A stretch of DNA of 64,000 nt from a virus. The translations under genes were made by a program, and so were the position numbers. Below the pieces are notes generated by a model. It ran no database searches. It saw only the letters and a program-made list of their open reading frames with translations, and had not been told where the DNA came from. Below are positions 1 to 12,234 of the stretch, piece by piece. The stretch is taken from positions 1 through 64,000 of the IMG/VR virus record IMGVR_UViG_3300009177_000028; one strand, 5' to 3'. How positions within the stretch are numbered: the first letter of the stretch is position 1; every line of letters begins with the position of its first letter.

Positions 1-12
1 ATGGCGAAATGA
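1..12 (+). CDS. 3' end of an upstream gene (partial)
   Basis: The last codons of a reading frame that enters from the left, ending in TGA at 10-12. The stop overlaps the ATG of the capsid gene as ATGA, the close coupling used throughout this phage. Only Met-Ala-Lys is visible, so nothing can be said about the product. Confidence 0.35.
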   Translation: MAK

Positions 13-992
13 ACGCCTCATCCCTAAAGGATGCACTACAAACCCTTGTAAAGTATGCAGCAGTTCTTGAAGAGAACACTCCATCCAACATGGGTCTTGC
101 AGGTCAACCATCCCTAAGCGATGACAAGCGTGATGAGCTTATTTCTCGCGCTATTATGACCCAAGACGGAAAGATTGCTCTTGCTCAGGCAATGGCAAAC
201 CCAATTCGTCGTAACTTGGACTACCACGGTATTGCCCGTAGAGCCCTTGTTGTTGACCCTCTTCCACAAGGTGCAATGCCAACTTACGATAGAGATATCG
301 ATGTTGCCGCAGTTGTTATCTCCAGCAACGGTACTGGTCCAGAATCCCGCGTATTCGGTGACCGTGTAGTTGTTCCAGAATTCGAAATCTACGCTAACCC
401 AACGGTTCGTATCGCTGAAGTTAAGCGTCGTAGATTCAACGTAATTGACCGTGCAGTCCAAAAGGCTCGCCAGGAAATTATGGCACAAGAAGATGCAAAC
501 ATCTTCGCAGCTCTTGATGCAGCCGCATCTGTCGAGAACACCTTGACCGATATCGCTGATGCAGGTCTTCTAAAGAGAGACCTTGTTGAAATCAAGCAGA
601 ACATTGATCGTTGGGACTTAGTAACCACTAAGTACTTCATGAACATCAATGAGTTCACCGATATCCTAAAGTGGGGTTCAGGTGGTGGACAAGGCACTGG
701 TGGCGGAGATTTCGATCCTGTAACCATGCGTGAAGTTCTACAGACTGGTCTATACGCTCACATTTGGGGTACTGACATTATGGTTTCCAAGATTGTTCCA
801 CCAGGAACCATCTACGGTGCCGCAGACCCAGAGTTCGTTGGTGTAATGCCAATCCGTCAAGACATTGAAGTTCTTCCAGCAGACGAACCAAAGCAGTTGA
901 AGCTTGGTTGGGTAGTTTCCGAGATCATCGGTATCGCTATCGTCAACCCACGTGGTGTCGCAGCAGGTCGTAAGTCCGTAACTGTTGGTTAA
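9..992 (+). CDS. Major capsid protein (HK97-fold type)
   Basis: Product of 327 aa, probably the main shell subunit of the head. The central part carries the pattern I associate with large-phage capsid proteins: a positively charged helix region (IRRNLDYHGIARR) followed by LVVDPLPQGAMPTYDRD, a long charged spine-like helix around residues 140-170 (VKRRRFNVIDRAVQKARQEI), and a C-terminal beta-rich segment ending near IVNPRGVAAGR. Codons lean to C-ending forms (AAC, TTC, ACC, GAC) far more than in most neighbours, as expected for a very abundant protein. The start overlaps the upstream stop (ATGA). A strong terminator follows at once. The family call rests on sequence feel and context, not on a catalytic motif; another abundant head protein is the main alternative. 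Confidence 0.72.
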   Translation: MNASSLKDALQTLVKYAAVLEENTPSNMGLAGQPSLSDDKRDELISRAIMTQDGKIALAQAMANPIRRNLDYHGIARRALVVDPLPQGAMPTYDRDIDVAAVVISSNGTGPESRVFGDRVVVPEFEIYANPTVRIAEVKRRRFNVIDRAVQKARQEIMAQEDANIFAALDAAASVENTLTDIADAGLLKRDLVEIKQNIDRWDLVTTKYFMNINEFTDILKWGSGGGQGTGGGDFDPVTMREVLQTGLYAHIWGTDIMVSKIVPPGTIYGAADPEFVGVMPIRQDIEVLPADEPKQLKLGWVVSEIIGIAIVNPRGVAAGRKSVTVG

Positions 993-1052: not shown

Positions 1053-2294
1053 TTAGCACCCTGCCGCAAAATTAAGAAGGAAGCTCTTGGTGTTGTTTTC
1101 TGGATTCCGTAAAACTTCCAAATAACAAGCATCCAAAATGCTCTTAATTTGAGGTCCCGGCCTAATCCCAATGGTCAGTAAATCGTCTCCGTTTACCACC
1201 ATTTCTCTGCGGGTTAGGACCACAACACTCTCATACTTCTCGAATTGCTCCCTGGATAGGTATCCCAGGGCCTCAGTCAAATGTATAAATTGCTCTAAGG
1301 TATGGGTCCAAGGGTCAGGGCTATGGTTCTTGATAACCGCCATAAAGCTCTTATAGGCAAGATCCGTATCCTTAGATACAAAGTCTCGGTATCTTTCCAG
1401 TAATTGCAAAAGAAATGAAACTCTTTTAATTTCCCTATTGGAGAATTTTAAGGAAAATAGTTCTTGCTCAACCAAACCAAATGGGCAGTGTGAGTATAGA
1501 AACGCAAGGCGCGTTTCCAGATCGCCGGAACACCTATCAAGTAACGTAAGCTCATTCATATCATTTTCATGATTAAACAAAAGAGGACAAGCTACTTGAA
1601 GGGCACCAGATTGCTGTAAAAGTTGGAACCCAAAGGAGGCGTTTTCGCTCATGAGCGTCTTACAAAGCTCATCTTGAATTCGTTCCTTTGAGACCTTCTT
1701 TAGTGTTTCAATGTTTTCTTTCATCCCATTGAAAGTTTCGCCTTGGACATCATAACCAAATCGAGCAGCAAATCTTGCCACACGCATGATTCTGAGGCCG
1801 TCCTCTCGAAACCTTGCACCAGGACTTCCAACTGCACGAATGACTCCTTCATACAAATCTTGTTGACCGTTATAAGGGTCAACAATTCTTCCTGAAATAG
1901 GGTCATATGCAATTGCATTGATGGTTAAGTCTCGTCGGGCCAAGTCTTGATCAACATGAAGGACGAAGAAGACTTCTTCTGGCCTGCGCCCGTCCGTGTA
2001 CGCCCCCTCAATACGAAAGGTGGTAACTTCAAAATGATTTTCGATTCCTAGTCCCATCACCACTGTAACGGTTCCGTGCTGCAATCCAGTAGGAATCGTC
2101 TTTGGAAATAAAGCAATTACTTCCTCTGGAGAGGCATCAGTCGTGATGTCCCAGTCTTTTGGCGTGGCACCCATGAGCAGGTCTCGAACACACCCACCGA
2201 CAATGTAGGCTTGATAGCCATTGTTGCTAAGTATGCGACATATTTCTAATGCTTGCCGATTTACCCGTTGGGGTGAAAGGTTCGTGTTTTCCAT
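1053..2294 (-). CDS. cca: CCA tRNA nucleotidyltransferase
   Basis: A 413-aa class II CCA-adding enzyme, which builds or repairs the 3' CCA end of tRNAs from CTP and ATP. Family motifs are in order: GGCVRDLLMG (33-42), metal-binding DWD (47-49), the RRDLTINAIAYD block (120-131) for ribose and template recognition, the FREDGLRIMRVARF helix (162-175) and ERIQDEL (204-210). Length is normal for bacterial enzymes and no key residue is missing, so it should be active. It lies alone on the minus strand between head genes, with its own promoter and a shared terminator, so it is accessory cargo, not part of morphogenesis. A plausible role is restoring tRNA ends damaged by host nucleases or defence toxins. 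Confidence 0.95.
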   Translation of the reverse strand: MENTNLSPQRVNRQALEICRILSNNGYQAYIVGGCVRDLLMGATPKDWDITTDASPEEVIALFPKTIPTGLQHGTVTVVMGLGIENHFEVTTFRIEGAYTDGRRPEEVFFVLHVDQDLARRDLTINAIAYDPISGRIVDPYNGQQDLYEGVIRAVGSPGARFREDGLRIMRVARFAARFGYDVQGETFNGMKENIETLKKVSKERIQDELCKTLMSENASFGFQLLQQSGALQVACPLLFNHENDMNELTLLDRCSGDLETRLAFLYSHCPFGLVEQELFSLKFSNREIKRVSFLLQLLERYRDFVSKDTDLAYKSFMAVIKNHSPDPWTHTLEQFIHLTEALGYLSREQFEKYESVVVLTRREMVVNGDDLLTIGIRPGPQIKSILDACYLEVLRNPENNTKSFLLNFAAGC

Positions 2295-4386: not shown

Positions 4387-5424
4387 ATGTCTGGAGTATC
4401 ACCTTCATCAGTTCTATTTAGCTCAGATGGCTATGAATTAGCCATCGTTGACGGTTCCAGCTTTATTGCCGGAACTCGTAGTATTCTAATTGCCGGTAAT
4501 GACGGTTCTAATACTCGTACAGTTTTGATCGACTCTACAGGAAGACAAGTAGTTGTCGGCGCAGGTACCGCAGGCTCACAAGCCGGTGGCGTCATCACCA
4601 TCCAAGGAGACCCGGCAGGTACACCTGTTCCAGTTTCTGGTACGGTTGCAGTTAGCTCTGTTTCCGGCACCGTAGCTGTAACTCAGTCTACTTCCCCATG
4701 GGTTGTAAGCGGAACAGTAACCTCTAACCAGGGTACTCCAAACAGCTTAGCTAACTCTTGGCCAATCACCATTACTGACGGTTATGGTAACATCCAAGGC
4801 TCTGCTGTTAACCCAGTTTATGTTCAGGGTAACATTACAGCTAACAACTCATCCGTAGGTGCAGATAACGCAGCTTTCCTATCCTTCGATACACAAGTTG
4901 GTGGCAAGGTTACTACAGCAGCTCCAACCTATACCAACGGTAACTTAAGCGCTCTATCTCTAACCACTCTTGGTGGTTTGCGTATTGACGGCGTCTATGC
5001 TGGAGCAACTGCAACCTCTACTGCTACTGATATGATGGTAAGTGGTGGTTATGTAACAACCGCAGCACCAAGCTATACAAACGCTACACTAAATGCTTTG
5101 TCCTTGGACACTTCTGGTAATTTGCGTGTCACTGGATTCGTAACAACTAACAAGGCTTCCTCCTCTGCTGTTACTTCCACTTCCGCATCAACAAGCAGCG
5201 TTACAATTTTGGCAAGCAATGCTACCAGAGTTGGCGCAACTGTCTTCAATACCAGCTCCAAGGTTATGTATGTCAAGCTTGGCGCCACTGCAAGCACTTC
5301 CAGCTTTACCACCCAATTGTTTGCTAACTCCTACTGGGAAGTTCCAAACGATTACACCGGCGTTATTGACGCTGTCTGGGCCGGTACTGGCGGAGCTGCA
5401 ATCGTAACTGAATTGACTCCATAA
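4387..5424 (+). CDS. Modular virion protein (decoration or fibre-like)
   Basis: Product of 345 aa, low in charge and rich in Ser, Thr, Val and Gly. Residues ~30-90 carry a module (GNDGSNTRTVLIDSTGRQVVVGAGTAG, then QGDPAGTPVPVSG) that recurs in the 5540 protein. The middle contains TAAPTYTNG/TAAPSYTNA internal repeats with LGGLRIDG/TSGNLRVTG strands. The last ~85 residues are the beta-domain shared with the 3799 protein. GGGGAT precedes the ATG at a good distance. C-ending codons are common, as in the capsid gene, so high expression is likely. A strong terminator follows. Probably exposed on the capsid or a fibre; I cannot tell which. Confidence 0.82.
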   Translation: MSGVSPSSVLFSSDGYELAIVDGSSFIAGTRSILIAGNDGSNTRTVLIDSTGRQVVVGAGTAGSQAGGVITIQGDPAGTPVPVSGTVAVSSVSGTVAVTQSTSPWVVSGTVTSNQGTPNSLANSWPITITDGYGNIQGSAVNPVYVQGNITANNSSVGADNAAFLSFDTQVGGKVTTAAPTYTNGNLSALSLTTLGGLRIDGVYAGATATSTATDMMVSGGYVTTAAPSYTNATLNALSLDTSGNLRVTGFVTTNKASSSAVTSTSASTSSVTILASNATRVGATVFNTSSKVMYVKLGATASTSSFTTQLFANSYWEVPNDYTGVIDAVWAGTGGAAIVTELTP

Positions 5425-5455
5425 TTAATCTAATAGATTAAATAAAAATTCCGAG

Positions 5456-5490
5456 AAGCCTGCTATTTATTAGCAGGCTTTTCTATTTTC
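5456..5490 (+). terminator. Intrinsic terminator after the 4387 gene
   Basis: Perfect 10-bp stem AAGCCTGCTA (5456-5465) with TAGCAGGCTT (5471-5480), loop TTTAT, followed by the T-rich tail TTCTATTTTC. It separates the modular protein at 4387 from the amber-containing gene at 5540. Confidence 0.9.
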
Positions 5491-5539
5491 TACATAATTT
5501 AGTATAACTAGCGTAGTCGTGTCTTTAAGAGGATAGAAT

Positions 5540-8212
5540 ATGGCAAGAGTTGAAGGTGGCGCTGTAACCATACTTACAGATTGGCCAGGATTAAAAAATC
5601 AGATAGACACCAGAAGTCTAAATTAGAGATTCGAAGAAACTGATGTTTCTTATGAAATTTTTGCAATTGATGGACAATATTTTTACACCGCACCTATCTA
5701 CAAGTCTGGAAAGGCCCCAGATAATCAAGCTACCTATGATACATATCGTGCTGATTTCGAAGCTAATTACAAAAATAGAATTACTGATTTTAACGCCACT
5801 GATCCAATTTTTCTTACTAATGTAGATGGTTACTCTGTTATTCTTAAGGACGGGGCCTCTCCAACTGCGAATGATGGATATGGTATTGCTGTAATTGGAA
5901 TCGATGGTTCCAACTATAGAATGCTTAAAATGGATTCGTCGGGTCGTCCAGTCATGGTCGGTGCTGGTACTGCCGGAAGTGCTGCTGGAGGAATTGTTAC
6001 TGTTCAAGGCGATCCTAGTGGAGTTCCAATTCCTATCTCAGGAAATATTACTGCTTCTAATGCTTCTGTAGGAACAAACGATGCCGCAATTCCTGGATTC
6101 TCTAATTTAATTGGTGGTTCCGATGGAACAAATCTTCGTTCGCTTAGAGTTTTTGACGTTGACTCTGGTGGCGGGCAGCAATGGGTTCTTGGCGTTGGTC
6201 TTCGCAAAGCTGCTGGTGGCGGTTCTGTTGAACTAGGCACATCTTCAGACCCGATTAGGACGGATCCAACTGGGACTACTACTCAGCCAGTTTCTGGTAC
6301 CGTTACCGCCAACCAAGGTGGAACTTGGACAGTTCAACCGGGTAATACAGCCAATACTACTCCGTGGTTAATTACTATTAGTCAAGGTGGAAATGCGGCC
6401 ACCGTAACTGGCGCCAATGCTTTGAAAGTAGATGGTAGTGCAGTTACACAACCAGTTTCTGGTACAGTAACTGTTACCCAATCAACCGCTGCAAATCTTA
6501 GGGCACAGTTAGCCTCTGAAACATCTACTGGCTCTTCTATTCCATCTACCGCATTGATGATTGGTGGCTCAGATGGTTCTCTTTTGAGAGCACTTTTTGT
6601 CGATTCATCTGGTCGTCCATTTGTAGTTGGAGCGGCAGCTAATGGCGCTGCTGTTGCTGGTAACCCAGTATTGGTGGCTGGCTCTGATGGCACTAATGCT
6701 CGTTCGATTAAAACAGCCAATGACGGAACTGTTAGAGTCGATCCAACCGGAACAACTACTCAACCAGTATCAGGAACTGTTGCTGCAACTCAGAGTGGTA
6801 CTTGGACGGTTCAGCCAGGTAATACGGCTAATACTACTCCATGGTTAATTACTATTAGTCAAGGTGGAAATTCAGCTACTGTTACTGCATCAAACGCTTT
6901 AAAGGTAGATGGATCTGCCGTTACACAACCGGTTTCTGGAACCGTGACGGTAACTCAAGCAACAGCATCAAATTTACGTTCTCAAACATCTTCAGAATCA
7001 AATACGGGCTCGGCTGTACCAACACAAGCCTCAATGGTTGGTGGAACAGATGGAACTAATTTAAGAGCAATATCTGTTGATTCTTCTGGCAGACAGATAG
7101 TTATCGGGGCCGCTGCCGATGGTTCTCCAATTACTGGTAATCCAGTATTGATGGCCGGTCAAGATGGAACCAACGTTCAAAGCATAGCTACTGATGGATA
7201 TGGTCGTGTACAGGTGTCCATTACTGGAACTTCTAGTACTCAAGTAGAAGGGCGAGCTGCTGACGGTTATACTCAGGTAGGAAATCCTGTATCTATAGCT
7301 GGCGTTGATGACGATGGTTATGTTCAAAATTTACATGTAGATAGTTCAGGTAATTTGCAAGTAGTTTCCGTATCCGCAGTTGGTACTTCCACCACCCGAA
7401 GGATTAGCCAAAATATTGCAACTAACGTTACTATTTATAATGATTATACGGTTCCGGTTGGGCAAACTCTTTCCGTATCATCTTATTATATGGGCGGTGG
7501 AAGTGCCGGAAGATCGACTCTAGCAAAACATACTTCCGCCAACGTTGCATTTATTACCAACGGAGATTTTGAAAACGGAACACAGGTTGCAGCTTGGGCC
7601 GCCGTTACCGGAAGTTTTACAGCCCCAACTCCAGATTCAAATTCAACACAATTCCAAACTGGTGCCGCTTCTATGAGGTGGACATATGCCAACAGCGCTA
7701 CTGCATTGGCAAGAAGACAAACTTTTACTCCGGTTATTGACTTGTCTGGGTATAGATATCTTCGTGTAAAATTCTTTAACGACGCAGCTACCGGTACAAC
7801 TAGAACTATTTCTATCATCGTTGCGTCAGGTACACCAACTAGAACATATTCGTTGTCTGGCACTCTTGGTTCGGCCCCATTTACTGCCAATACTTGGATC
7901 ACATTAACAGCAGATTTAGATAACCCAACCACTTCGACAGGAACGGGATTTGATTTAACGGCCGTAAGCACTATTACTTTACAGATGCAAGATGCCGCTA
8001 ACAAAACAGGTACCGTGTACTGGGATACCCTACGCCAAGAAGATCAATTAGATGTTAGACATCGTCTATATACCTCTACAGGAGATACTGTAAGTGCACC
8101 TTTGAATCCGGTTGAAACATTCAATGCAAGCGAATCAGTTTATTTAATTGCTAGAAATATAGGCAATACTACAAACGAATATACTGCAATATGGTCGGGG
8201 ACATTAGTTTAA
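5540..8212 (+). CDS. Large modular virion protein with in-frame amber codon 29
   Basis: The natural frame starts at ATG 5540, after the ribosome site AGAGGATA, and runs 890 codons except for TAG at 5624-5626. The sequence on both sides of the TAG aligns with the N-termini of the next two genes (SLN-stop-RFEETDVSYEIFAIDG against TLSIQYLESSDRYSIFVIDG), so this is one gene. The ATG at 5921 lacks a ribosome site and would lose the conserved N-terminus. Downstream are a module shared with the 4387 protein, a tandem repeat of 159 residues (about 6263-6739 and 6740-7190; TGTTTQPVSGTV, WTVQPGNTANTTPWLITISQ) and a C-terminal carbohydrate-binding-like beta-sandwich (about residues 660-800). Possible explanations are amber suppression or readthrough, a recent nonsense mutation, or a sequencing error. 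Confidence 0.8.
5624..5626 (+). other. In-frame amber (TAG) codon
   Basis: TAG at codon 29 of the 5540 gene. In the two downstream paralogues the aligned codon is ATT (Ile). Coding character continues without change of frame on both sides. Confidence 0.92.
6263..7190 (+). repeat. Tandem 477-bp coding repeat in the 5540 gene
   Basis: Two diverged copies starting at 6263 and 6740 (spacing 477 bp, 159 codons). Both begin with the DPTGTTTQPVSGTV motif and run through GSAVTQPVSGTVTVTQ and the DSSGR.-VVGA module. Nucleotide identity is clearly lower than protein similarity, so the duplication is old and selected at the protein level. Confidence 0.85.
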
Positions 8213-8224
8213 AAGAGGGAAGAA

Positions 8225-9271
8225 ATGGCAATTAATTTTGGTGGAAATGTAGTAATATATGAGCAGTGGACAGCATTAAAAACAACCGCTGTTAATAATA
8301 CTTTATCTATTCAATATTTAGAGAGTAGTGATAGGTATTCAATATTTGTAATTGATGGTGGTGTTGTTAGAGCATGCACTATATATACCGGAACTATACC
8401 TAATTTCGTTGATCCTGATGTTGGTGATCCATCAGATCAATCAACTAATGATTCGTACAAATCAGACTTTGAAACTAACTATAAACCTACGGCTAATTCC
8501 CGTATTTCTAGAACCGATAGTTTCGGAGATCCAATTCATTTGGATTTCGTGGATGCCGTTGCATTTGGGTTAATACCAAACGCTACTAATGGAACAGCTA
8601 ATGGATATATTGGCACGGCTGCAATAACTACAGTTGCTGTTAGGGCTACAAGTTATATTGCTGATACAACCGCAGCTCAGAGAAGCGTCGTTTCTTCTAG
8701 TGCCAACGATACTTCTGCGGGTACTGGAGCACGAACTGTCAAGATTACCTATTACGATAATTCTGTTAATGGACCATTTACTGAAACAGTTACTATGAAT
8801 GGCACCACACCAGTTAATACCACCAATACTAATATTCGTTTTATAGAAAAAATGGAGGTAGTGACAGTCGGCTCAACGGGATCTAATGCAGGCACTATTT
8901 CACTAAAACAAAATACGGGTGGTGGAGGAAGTACCCTCGGATCTATTGCGATTAGCGACAATCAAACTTACTGGGCACATCATTATGTAGCTGCCGGGAA
9001 AACTGCACACATTTATGCTGTTAGGGCAGGCTCTTCAATCACTAATGGAATAGTAAACGTAATTGCTACAGGCGATCCAACTGCTACCAATTTACCATCC
9101 AAAAACATCTCTAATGGTATAAGAATGGGATCAGCCAATCAGGTAGTATCATTTTATGAATGGGTGGCCCCACTTTCAGTTGTTGGTCCCAATTTTGTGT
9201 TTATCAACACCAAGCCAGATGCAGTGACCGCCTCCACTATTTATGCTTCTTTTGACTATTCGGAGTTTTAA
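8225..9271 (+). CDS. Virion protein, paralogue A of a triplet
   Basis: Product of 348 aa. Its N-terminal ~90 residues (FGGNVVIYEQWTALK, IFVIDGG, YKSDFETNYKP) are shared with the 5540 protein and with the next gene. The following ~180 residues (TTAAQRSVVSSSANDTSAG, ARTVKITYYDNS, NIRFIEKMEVVTVGS, TYWAHHYV) are closely matched in the next gene and form a beta-rich domain I associate with tail or head appendage proteins of large phages. A strong AGAGGGAAG site lies before the ATG. Likely a structural appendage made with its neighbours; exact location on the particle is unknown. Confidence 0.82.
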   Translation: MAINFGGNVVIYEQWTALKTTAVNNTLSIQYLESSDRYSIFVIDGGVVRACTIYTGTIPNFVDPDVGDPSDQSTNDSYKSDFETNYKPTANSRISRTDSFGDPIHLDFVDAVAFGLIPNATNGTANGYIGTAAITTVAVRATSYIADTTAAQRSVVSSSANDTSAGTGARTVKITYYDNSVNGPFTETVTMNGTTPVNTTNTNIRFIEKMEVVTVGSTGSNAGTISLKQNTGGGGSTLGSIAISDNQTYWAHHYVAAGKTAHIYAVRAGSSITNGIVNVIATGDPTATNLPSKNISNGIRMGSANQVVSFYEWVAPLSVVGPNFVFINTKPDAVTASTIYASFDYSEF

Positions 9272-9274
9272 CCT

Positions 9275-10288
9275 ATGTCAGTAAATTTTAACGCCAATGT
9301 CACAATTTCAAATACTTGGACCAACTTTAAATCAATTACTACGTCTAAGACATTGCCTATTCAATATGATGATGATGGTATAACATACACTATTTTTGCT
9401 ATTGATGACCCCATGATTTATATTTGTACTATTTGGAAAGGTACTGTACCGAGTGGTGTTATTGATGGTGGTTATTCTCAGGCCCAAAATGATACTGATG
9501 AGTCTGACTTTGAAACAAACTATAAGCCGTCAGCTAATAAGAACGTAAGTATTCTTTGGACGGCTGAAAGAGCTATAGCGGCCGGCATTATTTTGAACGG
9601 ATTGTCAGGAGCTATTGGTGGGTATGTAGGAACTGCATCTGCTTCTTTGGTGACAGTGCGCGCGACCGCTTATACAGAACCAAGCTCAGCAGCGCAACGT
9701 TCTGTAGCCTCATCCAGTGCCAGTGATTCATCTGCTGGAACCGGCACTAGAACCATTAGAATTACCTATTATGATAATTCGATGAATGGTCCATTAACTG
9801 AAGATATTACTATGAATGGAACTAGTAACGTAAATACAGTGGCAACTAACATTAGATTCATAGAAAAAATTGAATCACTAACTGTTGGATCTAACGGCGG
9901 AAATGTTGGAACTATTACTTTATTTGGATCAACTAACGGCGGTGGTGGTACAGTAGGAACAATTGCTGTTGGTGATGGTAGAACTTATTGGGCTCATCAT
10001 TATGTTAGGCCAAGCAGAACTATGTTTATTAGAAAGTTAATTCTTAGCACTGGAACTGGTGGTACTGCTGCTAATGCCTCCATTAGAACGGCCACTCCAT
10101 TAACCGCTAACGCATTTGAAAACCAAATTGGTACACAGTATAGAGTTGTAAATGGTACTACTGGTAATGTAATTGATTTTGATGCACTTGCTGCTGTAAA
10201 TGGACCTGCCAGAGTAACTATTTATGTAAAGCCTGATGCAACTACCGCGAGTACATTTTATGCTAACTTTTCATACTATGAGATTTGA
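9275..10288 (+). CDS. Virion protein, paralogue B of a triplet
   Basis: Product of 337 aa, collinear over nearly its whole length with the 8225 protein: FNANVTISNTWTNFK, YTIFAIDD, SDFETNYKPSANK, SSAAQRSVASSSASDSSAG, TRTIRITYYDNSMNGP, NIRFIEKIESLTVGSNG, TYWAHHYV and a C-terminal VTIYVKPDATTASTFYANF matching FVFINTKPDAVTASTIYASF. It begins 3 nt after the previous stop with little ribosome site, so translation is probably coupled. Tandem duplication and divergence of an appendage protein is the simplest reading. One of only four genes here that end in TGA. Confidence 0.82.
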   Translation: MSVNFNANVTISNTWTNFKSITTSKTLPIQYDDDGITYTIFAIDDPMIYICTIWKGTVPSGVIDGGYSQAQNDTDESDFETNYKPSANKNVSILWTAERAIAAGIILNGLSGAIGGYVGTASASLVTVRATAYTEPSSAAQRSVASSSASDSSAGTGTRTIRITYYDNSMNGPLTEDITMNGTSNVNTVATNIRFIEKIESLTVGSNGGNVGTITLFGSTNGGGGTVGTIAVGDGRTYWAHHYVRPSRTMFIRKLILSTGTGGTAANASIRTATPLTANAFENQIGTQYRVVNGTTGNVIDFDALAAVNGPARVTIYVKPDATTASTFYANFSYYEI

Positions 10289-11370: not shown

Positions 11371-12234
11371 TTGAGGGCTTTGGTGTTAAGTGGCGGCGGC
11401 AGCAAAGGTGCGTACCAAGTAGGTGCTCTCAAGCATATCTTGGGTGAGGTGGGGACTGTCTATGATGCTTTTTGTGGCGTTTCTGTTGGTGCAATTAATT
11501 GTGCCTCTTTGGCTATGTTCGGTTATGGAGAAGAGAAACAGTCTATCTCTATTCTTGCTGATATGTGGTCTACGTTAAATACGACCAAAATCTACAAGAG
11601 ATGGTTTCCTTTTGGACGATGGCACGCTCTTTGGAACAAAAGCTTTTATGATAGTTCACCTTTACATCAATTACTAAGGGACACTATTCATTTAGATAAG
11701 ATTAGAGCTAGTGGTAAAAAGGTTAGTGTTGGAACCGTTTCACTTAGTTCTGGAAAATATACTATTTTTGACCAAAATTCTGATCATTTTATCGATGCGG
11801 TTATTGCATCCTCATCTTTTCCAGGGATGTTAACCCCTGTAAAGTTCTTGGGGCAGCTTTGGACAGATGGCGGGGTCAAAGAAATCTCTCCTATTAAGAA
11901 AGCGGTCGAGTTAGGTGCCGATATTATTGATGTTATTATCACTTCTCCACATACTCGTGTGAAAAGATTCATCGAAGAGCCCACTACGGTTGAAATTTTA
12001 AAGCGTAGCATCGACTTATCTACTGATAAGATCATGGCAAATGACATTGAGAAGGTTGAAATGCATAATCGTCTGGCTCAGGCAGGGTTAGAGGACCGAA
12101 AATTCGTAAAAATTAACATTTTGCGCCCCGATTACAACCTAATCGAAGACCTGCTTGATTTCAGACCTGAAAAAATTAAAGAAATGATGGAAAAGGGTTA
12201 CGCTGACGCTAAATACAAGTATACAATGGAATAA
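11371..12234 (+). CDS. Patatin-like phospholipase
   Basis: Product of 287 aa. All catalytic elements of the patatin family are visible: the oxyanion loop GGGSKG (8-13), nucleophile elbow GVSVG with Ser38, and the dyad Asp in DGG (166-168). It should hydrolyse acyl chains of phospholipids or related lipids. No signal peptide or membrane segment is seen, so it is cytoplasmic unless packaged in the virion. The start is TTG: an in-frame TAA lies directly upstream, the family motif begins at residue 8, and GTGAGG precedes it. A terminator upstream separates it from the glycosidase-like gene. It may assist lysis or membrane remodelling, or interfere with host lipid signalling; these are inferences. 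Confidence 0.93.
   Translation: MRALVLSGGGSKGAYQVGALKHILGEVGTVYDAFCGVSVGAINCASLAMFGYGEEKQSISILADMWSTLNTTKIYKRWFPFGRWHALWNKSFYDSSPLHQLLRDTIHLDKIRASGKKVSVGTVSLSSGKYTIFDQNSDHFIDAVIASSSFPGMLTPVKFLGQLWTDGGVKEISPIKKAVELGADIIDVIITSPHTRVKRFIEEPTTVEILKRSIDLSTDKIMANDIEKVEMHNRLAQAGLEDRKFVKINILRPDYNLIEDLLDFRPEKIKEMMEKGYADAKYKYTME

Follow-up and report, generated by a model that had tools for sequence, protein, structure and literature searches.

A single in-frame amber codon in a fibre-like gene from a family of ~450-kb phages with amber-reading tRNAs

What does an amber codon mean when it stands alone, after 28 residues, in an otherwise open phage gene of 890 codons? The gene lies in a 64,000-nucleotide stretch (positions 1–64,000, hereafter the window) of the IMG/VR virus record IMGVR_UViG_3300009177_000028. 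The original prediction, made from the letters of the window, described a conserved virion gene and suggested regulated readthrough or late-specific decoding of its TAG, with a recent nonsense mutation or a sequencing error as the plain alternatives. The whole record (G000, 204 kb) represents less than half of a genome of roughly 450 kb (related genomes have 433–481 kb). Given that it starts within the gene for the major head protein, all sequence upstream of this gene is missing; in the relative L235, which matches it at 100% identity for 3,120 bp, the sequence continues leftward for another 5.4 kb, and an in-frame capsid start is seen earlier. The features discussed below are located in Table 1. 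In the last part of the record (G000:160000–204387), the GC content climbs from ~0.41 to ~0.52 and few homologues are found in relatives; similar high-GC ends occur in G006 and G002, and the start of one ORF there (G000:197703–198458) appears Ku-like by eye only. A capsid gene relative (L183, JAIXLO010000160.1; 79% over part) sits on a contig of 383 kb whose bin is assigned to a Chitinophagales bacterium, which is either a weak hint of the host or a misbinned phage.

Table 1. Positions of the features discussed; coordinates without a prefix refer to the window.
Feature	Position	Strand	Evidence
Major head protein, record begins inside gene	9..992	+	PHROG 2522, E 1e-77
CCA-adding tRNA nucleotidyltransferase	1053..2294	-	Pfam PF01743, NCBIfam NF009814, both above cut-off
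Terminator-like hairpin, 13 pairs	5453..5483	+	consensus scan; number of hairpins not above shuffles
Shine-Dalgarno-like motif AAGAGG	5526..5531	+	read from sequence; 8 nt before ATG of 5540
Fibre-like late gene with one in-frame amber	5540..8212	+	reading frame, orthologue L288, gene-order comparison
N-terminal domain, W..fK..v.sK.L..QY....Y.ifa.D...DFETNYK type	5540..5794	+	alignments; 95 non-identical copies in fetched loci
In-frame TAG, codon 29	5624..5626	+	sequence, alignment columns, AlphaFold2 model of L288 domain
Largest standard-code ORF past TAG, from Met 5921	5921..8212	+	ORF list, sequence
Adjacent gene with same N-terminal domain, no internal stop	8225..9271	+	
Second adjacent gene with same N-terminal domain, no internal stop	9275..10288	+	
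Release factor 2 (UAA/UGA only), full-length, outside window	G000:147016-148113 (L006:7016-8113)		TIGR00020
CUA tRNAs	L209:6813 and 8232; L215:14771		
Further CUA tRNA loci	L345, L346, L347, L348, L351, L352, L353, L355, L367, L373, L376		
TAA difference between near-identical contigs	L128:22-24 vs L013:9714-9716		

The frame runs from ATG to TAA, and the sequence confirmed the TAG as its codon 29 and exactly one internal stop. Its product comprises an N-terminal domain of ~85 a.a., glycine/threonine-rich repeats, and a distinct C-terminal part. The good ribosome site that had been claimed for the gene is present as the AAGAGG motif, which also precedes the ATG of the orthologue in L288. Between the upstream gene (4387–5424) and this gene lies the terminator-like hairpin, and a similar hairpin, as judged by eye, occupies the matching place in the relative L026. 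On the strength of sequence comparison, this is a real frame and no chance open run, as had been argued: the L288 orthologue (L288:16136–18646; capsid 94% identical) is open for 836 codons and 84% identical across the first 130 residues, the residues around the TAG match copies of the N-terminal domain without a gap, and codons 30–127 carry ~36 synonymous and 19 non-synonymous differences relative to L288 (dN/dS ~0.08; 0.065–0.10 by segment in the region past the TAG). Purifying selection at these codons mostly predates the stop, and shows the past worth of the domain rather than its current production.

The copies closest at hand are those of the two adjacent genes. The gapless alignment to these genes on which the original prediction had relied holds around the TAG, with gaps starting after about residue 52, and only the first ~80 residues are common to the three genes, the rest of this protein being a different mosaic. 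For the domain as it occurs in L288, AlphaFold2 gave a model that was confident for residues 11–80 and in which residue 29 lies where a predicted central beta-strand (residues 28–33) begins, so a 28-residue product would presumably be unable to fold as this domain. A structure search with the domain returned no significant match and no structural relative, and the fold therefore does not put a name to it. In a related gene, the near-identical contigs L128 and L013 differ by a TAA in this same domain, at a contig end, which indicates that nonsense variants or consensus errors occur in the background.

The description of the gene as conserved was overstated. It sits in a cassette bounded by a conserved block (the capsid gene, the CCA-adding enzyme gene, and genes 2376 and 3107) on one side and a patatin-like gene (11371) on the other, and this cassette is strongly divergent even among relatives with 95–98% identical capsids. 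At the equivalent place, the sister phage G001 encodes a related repeat protein without the N-terminal domain, while the L288 gene matches the first third of the window's gene and diverges beyond. The gene matched no PHROG, and no Pfam family reached its cut-off. We accordingly regard it as a variable, mosaic, fibre-like gene, and its position and repeats suggest that the product is located in the virion, which is as far as the earlier label of a virion gene can be carried. The patatin-like phospholipase gene that adjoins the cassette (11371–12234) is conserved and displayed weak similarity to CBASS phospholipases, far below the cut-off of that family.

Comparison of codon 29 with related phages, which had been proposed as a check, indicates the direction of the change. 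Codon 29 is a sense codon (Phe) in L288, and L028 (record G003), from a phage further removed, is likewise open there, so that, by comparison of these genes, the TAG is a derived stop in this lineage; intact orthologues of this kind, L288 with a sense codon at the position, are what a plain nonsense (pseudogene) allele would be expected to have. A second disabling change is absent across the 890 codons, and a single such change in a gene of this length fits a recent event. An exact search found no other contig spanning codon 29. As written, translation would normally end after 28 residues. The ATG at 5643 is out of frame and opens 60 codons only, and inspection of the sequence upstream of Met 5921 revealed no recognisable ribosome-binding site. 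A start at Met 5921 leaves out the entire N-terminal domain, and since re-initiation there would yield a product without it, the gene as written would be effectively off or strongly reduced. The degree of this loss would hinge on whether the phage carries a CUA tRNA, as most of its relatives do.

We therefore consider the TAG to be most likely an isolated and derived nonsense codon in a standard-code megaphage, arising either as a recent mutation in the sampled population or as a consensus error; the plain alternatives named in the original prediction are its best supported part. Routine use of a suppressor predicts in-frame TAGs elsewhere, and none was found, which favours a plain nonsense codon or an error: among frames continuing through a TAG in G000, G001, G002, G004, and G006, there was no further credible case. 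Repeating the search for TGA and TAA returned more continuing frames than TAG did, most of them due to neighbouring genes that lie in one frame. Two same-frame ORF pairs in G000 were considered as readthrough and rejected, one (G000:202712–203680) being an ordinary adjacent gene whose ribosome site overlaps the stop, and the other (G000:189777–190721) having no homologue that supports the frame. Across ~1.5 Mb of homologous coding alignments, no convincing internal stop was seen in conserved genes, and most of the stops that tblastn surveys seemed to show lay in antisense frames or upstream of the true start. The other nonsense interruptions in relatives are TGA or TAA (L181:1806, L305:2325, L342:2013), so amber is not enriched, and these, together with the TAA difference between L128 and L013, again favour plain nonsense or error. 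Counting against this explanation are a family CUA tRNA locus that falls outside the coverage of the record and a release factor 2 (RF2) encoded within it.

The main rival is that the amber is read by a phage CUA tRNA from the missing part of the genome, giving a fraction of full-length protein; no regulation would be needed, as such a suppressor would just make amber mutations tolerable. Some readthrough of this kind is possible, and we hold it to be the less probable reading, one that still deserves weight, because the record covers less than half of the genome and the CUA tRNAs of relatives lie on the part that is missing. The check for a CUA tRNA that had been proposed was negative for the 204-kb record, where ARAGORN and Rfam found no tRNA genes at all (ARAGORN at lowered thresholds gave hundreds of candidates, which were spurious), and positive for 13 of the 17 informative relatives (G001, G004, G012, G013, G014, G015, G018, G019, G020, G023, G032, G033, and G035). 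These carry one or two copies, in several sequence groups, at one syntenic locus (Thr tRNAs, one or two CUA tRNAs, and Arg-CCT) situated ~85 kb upstream of the capsid gene, the very gene inside which our record starts. No CUA tRNA was seen at the locus in G016, G017, G022, or G034, which counts against this rival. These counts include G016 and G017, which look near-identical, and G018 and G035, which may be closely related; G021 ends before the locus and stands outside the 17. At or near the same locus, ARAGORN called tmRNA genes in some relatives (L372:1262, L373:1879, L377:7335), and it called a tRNA with a UUA anticodon (ochre type) at L357:14073 (G012).

The RF2 of G000 scored 400 bits against a cut-off of 370 for TIGR00020 (prfB family) and contains the SPF and GGQ motifs, with no internal frameshift stop seen. 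RF2 is also encoded by G002, G006, and all six of the records G012–G017, and it occurs together with a CUA tRNA on single contigs in G012–G015. The same pairing is indicated for a close relative: G006 (RF2) and G032 (CUA tRNA) share a source metagenome and 123 identical bases of overlap at their ends, which makes it most likely that they are pieces of a single genome, with a capsid 98% identical to that of the window. With CUA tRNAs in the family and RF2 in the record, amber is the most readable stop here, and the CCA-adding enzyme is a further sign of tRNA handling by the phage. Beside the RF2 gene, G000:145324–157756 contains numerous short ORFs in a run; the encoded proteins begin with CPxC/CxxC-type motifs and resemble small zinc-ribbon-like proteins of a tandem family.

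The use of TAG as a terminator bears on the same rival. Among 758 conserved genes, TAG is the terminator in 15 and TGA in 226, or 96 without ATGA overlaps; against an off-frame TAG:TGA background of 10702:15102, this under-use is marked (odds ratio 0.22 and P 2e-10, computed with the 96 non-overlapping TGA) and could be taken to favour suppression. Rarity of TAG terminators is also found in ordinary bacteria, and the under-use constitutes only weak evidence for suppression. Where a gene ends with TAG, its homologues have TAA or TGA at the equivalent position (e.g., G000:91915–92466 compared to G004), so TAG still functions as a terminator in this family. Further against suppression, CUA-bearing relatives show no in-frame TAG in conserved genes, and efficient TAG decoding, if available, is thus not visibly used.

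A programmed or late-specific readthrough, deliberately setting a low dose of full-length fibre, appears improbable to us. The late position of the gene, the encoded RF2, and known cases of phages that recode stop codons in structural genes (PMC10879173, PMC13037316) would be in keeping with it, whereas the stop is absent from the orthologues L288 and L028 instead of being conserved in relatives, and the RNA around the TAG, where a conserved 3′ signal would be expected, folds little better than shuffles (z −1.3). A truncated product of only 28 residues would not be useful as a protein. The original suggestion of regulated readthrough therefore gained no positive evidence, and its variant of late-specific decoding fared no better: other late genes lack an in-frame TAG, TAG still terminates genes, and an avoidance of TAG terminators in the late block (0/64 conserved genes), at first suggestive, was dropped as not significant (P about 0.28). 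Reassignment of TAG to an amino acid, as in Lak or many crAss-like phages, we regard as hardly credible: the RF2 of the record and the CUA tRNAs of relatives are two parts that Lak also has (PMC8346664), but the many in-frame TAGs expected under a code 15 type have a single credible representative in 204 kb, and TAG, rare as it is, is used to end genes where homologues end with TAA or TGA rather than being abandoned.

Several known systems share components with this family. Zeta crAss-like phages retain suppressor tRNAs without recoding (PMC12386605), and the present phages likewise keep a CTA-anticodon suppressor tRNA with rare TAG and no stop suppression visible in their genes; unlike these unrelated and smaller phages, they encode RF2, and complete relatives reach ~430–480 kb. 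The Lak megaphages, which have very large genomes with RF2 and 24–56 tRNAs, and most of which carry one or two CTA suppressor tRNAs, combine the tRNA and RF2 with full TAG reassignment (PMC8346664). The RF2 found here is related to that of Lak at about 38% identity, whereas TAG, reassigned in Lak, occurs here once in frame and still terminates genes. Translation genes, including RF1/RF2, tmRNA, and CCA-adding enzymes, have been surveyed across clades of huge phages (PMC7162821, in the text of which the word "suppressor" was not found), and our family is similar in its tRNAs, CCA-adding enzyme, RF2, and, in some relatives, tmRNA. In a 2026 survey, recoded jumbo phages were noted to have RF2 and CTA tRNAs (PMC13037316). 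Bacterial genes with in-frame stops (PMC7918605) resemble the present case in their single stop and in homologues that are intact and under purifying selection, with the difference that they were followed across bacterial species and ours is one phage record. We did not find the family named in the literature on phage recoding and translation genes (PMC12386605, PMC8346664, PMC7162821, PMC13037316), and it can be described as a standard-code member of the set of phages with RF2 and CTA tRNAs. A bolder and rather doubtful extension is that the family is poised between codes, with amber suppressor tRNAs and its own RF2 under the standard code, and that the TAG at 5624 is an early suppressor-tolerated amber in a rapidly evolving fibre gene, a first step of TAG capture.

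Taken alone, then, the amber is probably an ordinary mutation, and its setting is of wider use. Phages of this ~450-kb family retain both RF2 and, at a fixed locus, tRNAs that read amber, yet have essentially no TAG inside their genes, which makes them a natural test of the role of suppressor tRNAs in phages with an unchanged code. They raise the question of whether such phages are en route to recoding, or whether the tRNA is turned against the host.
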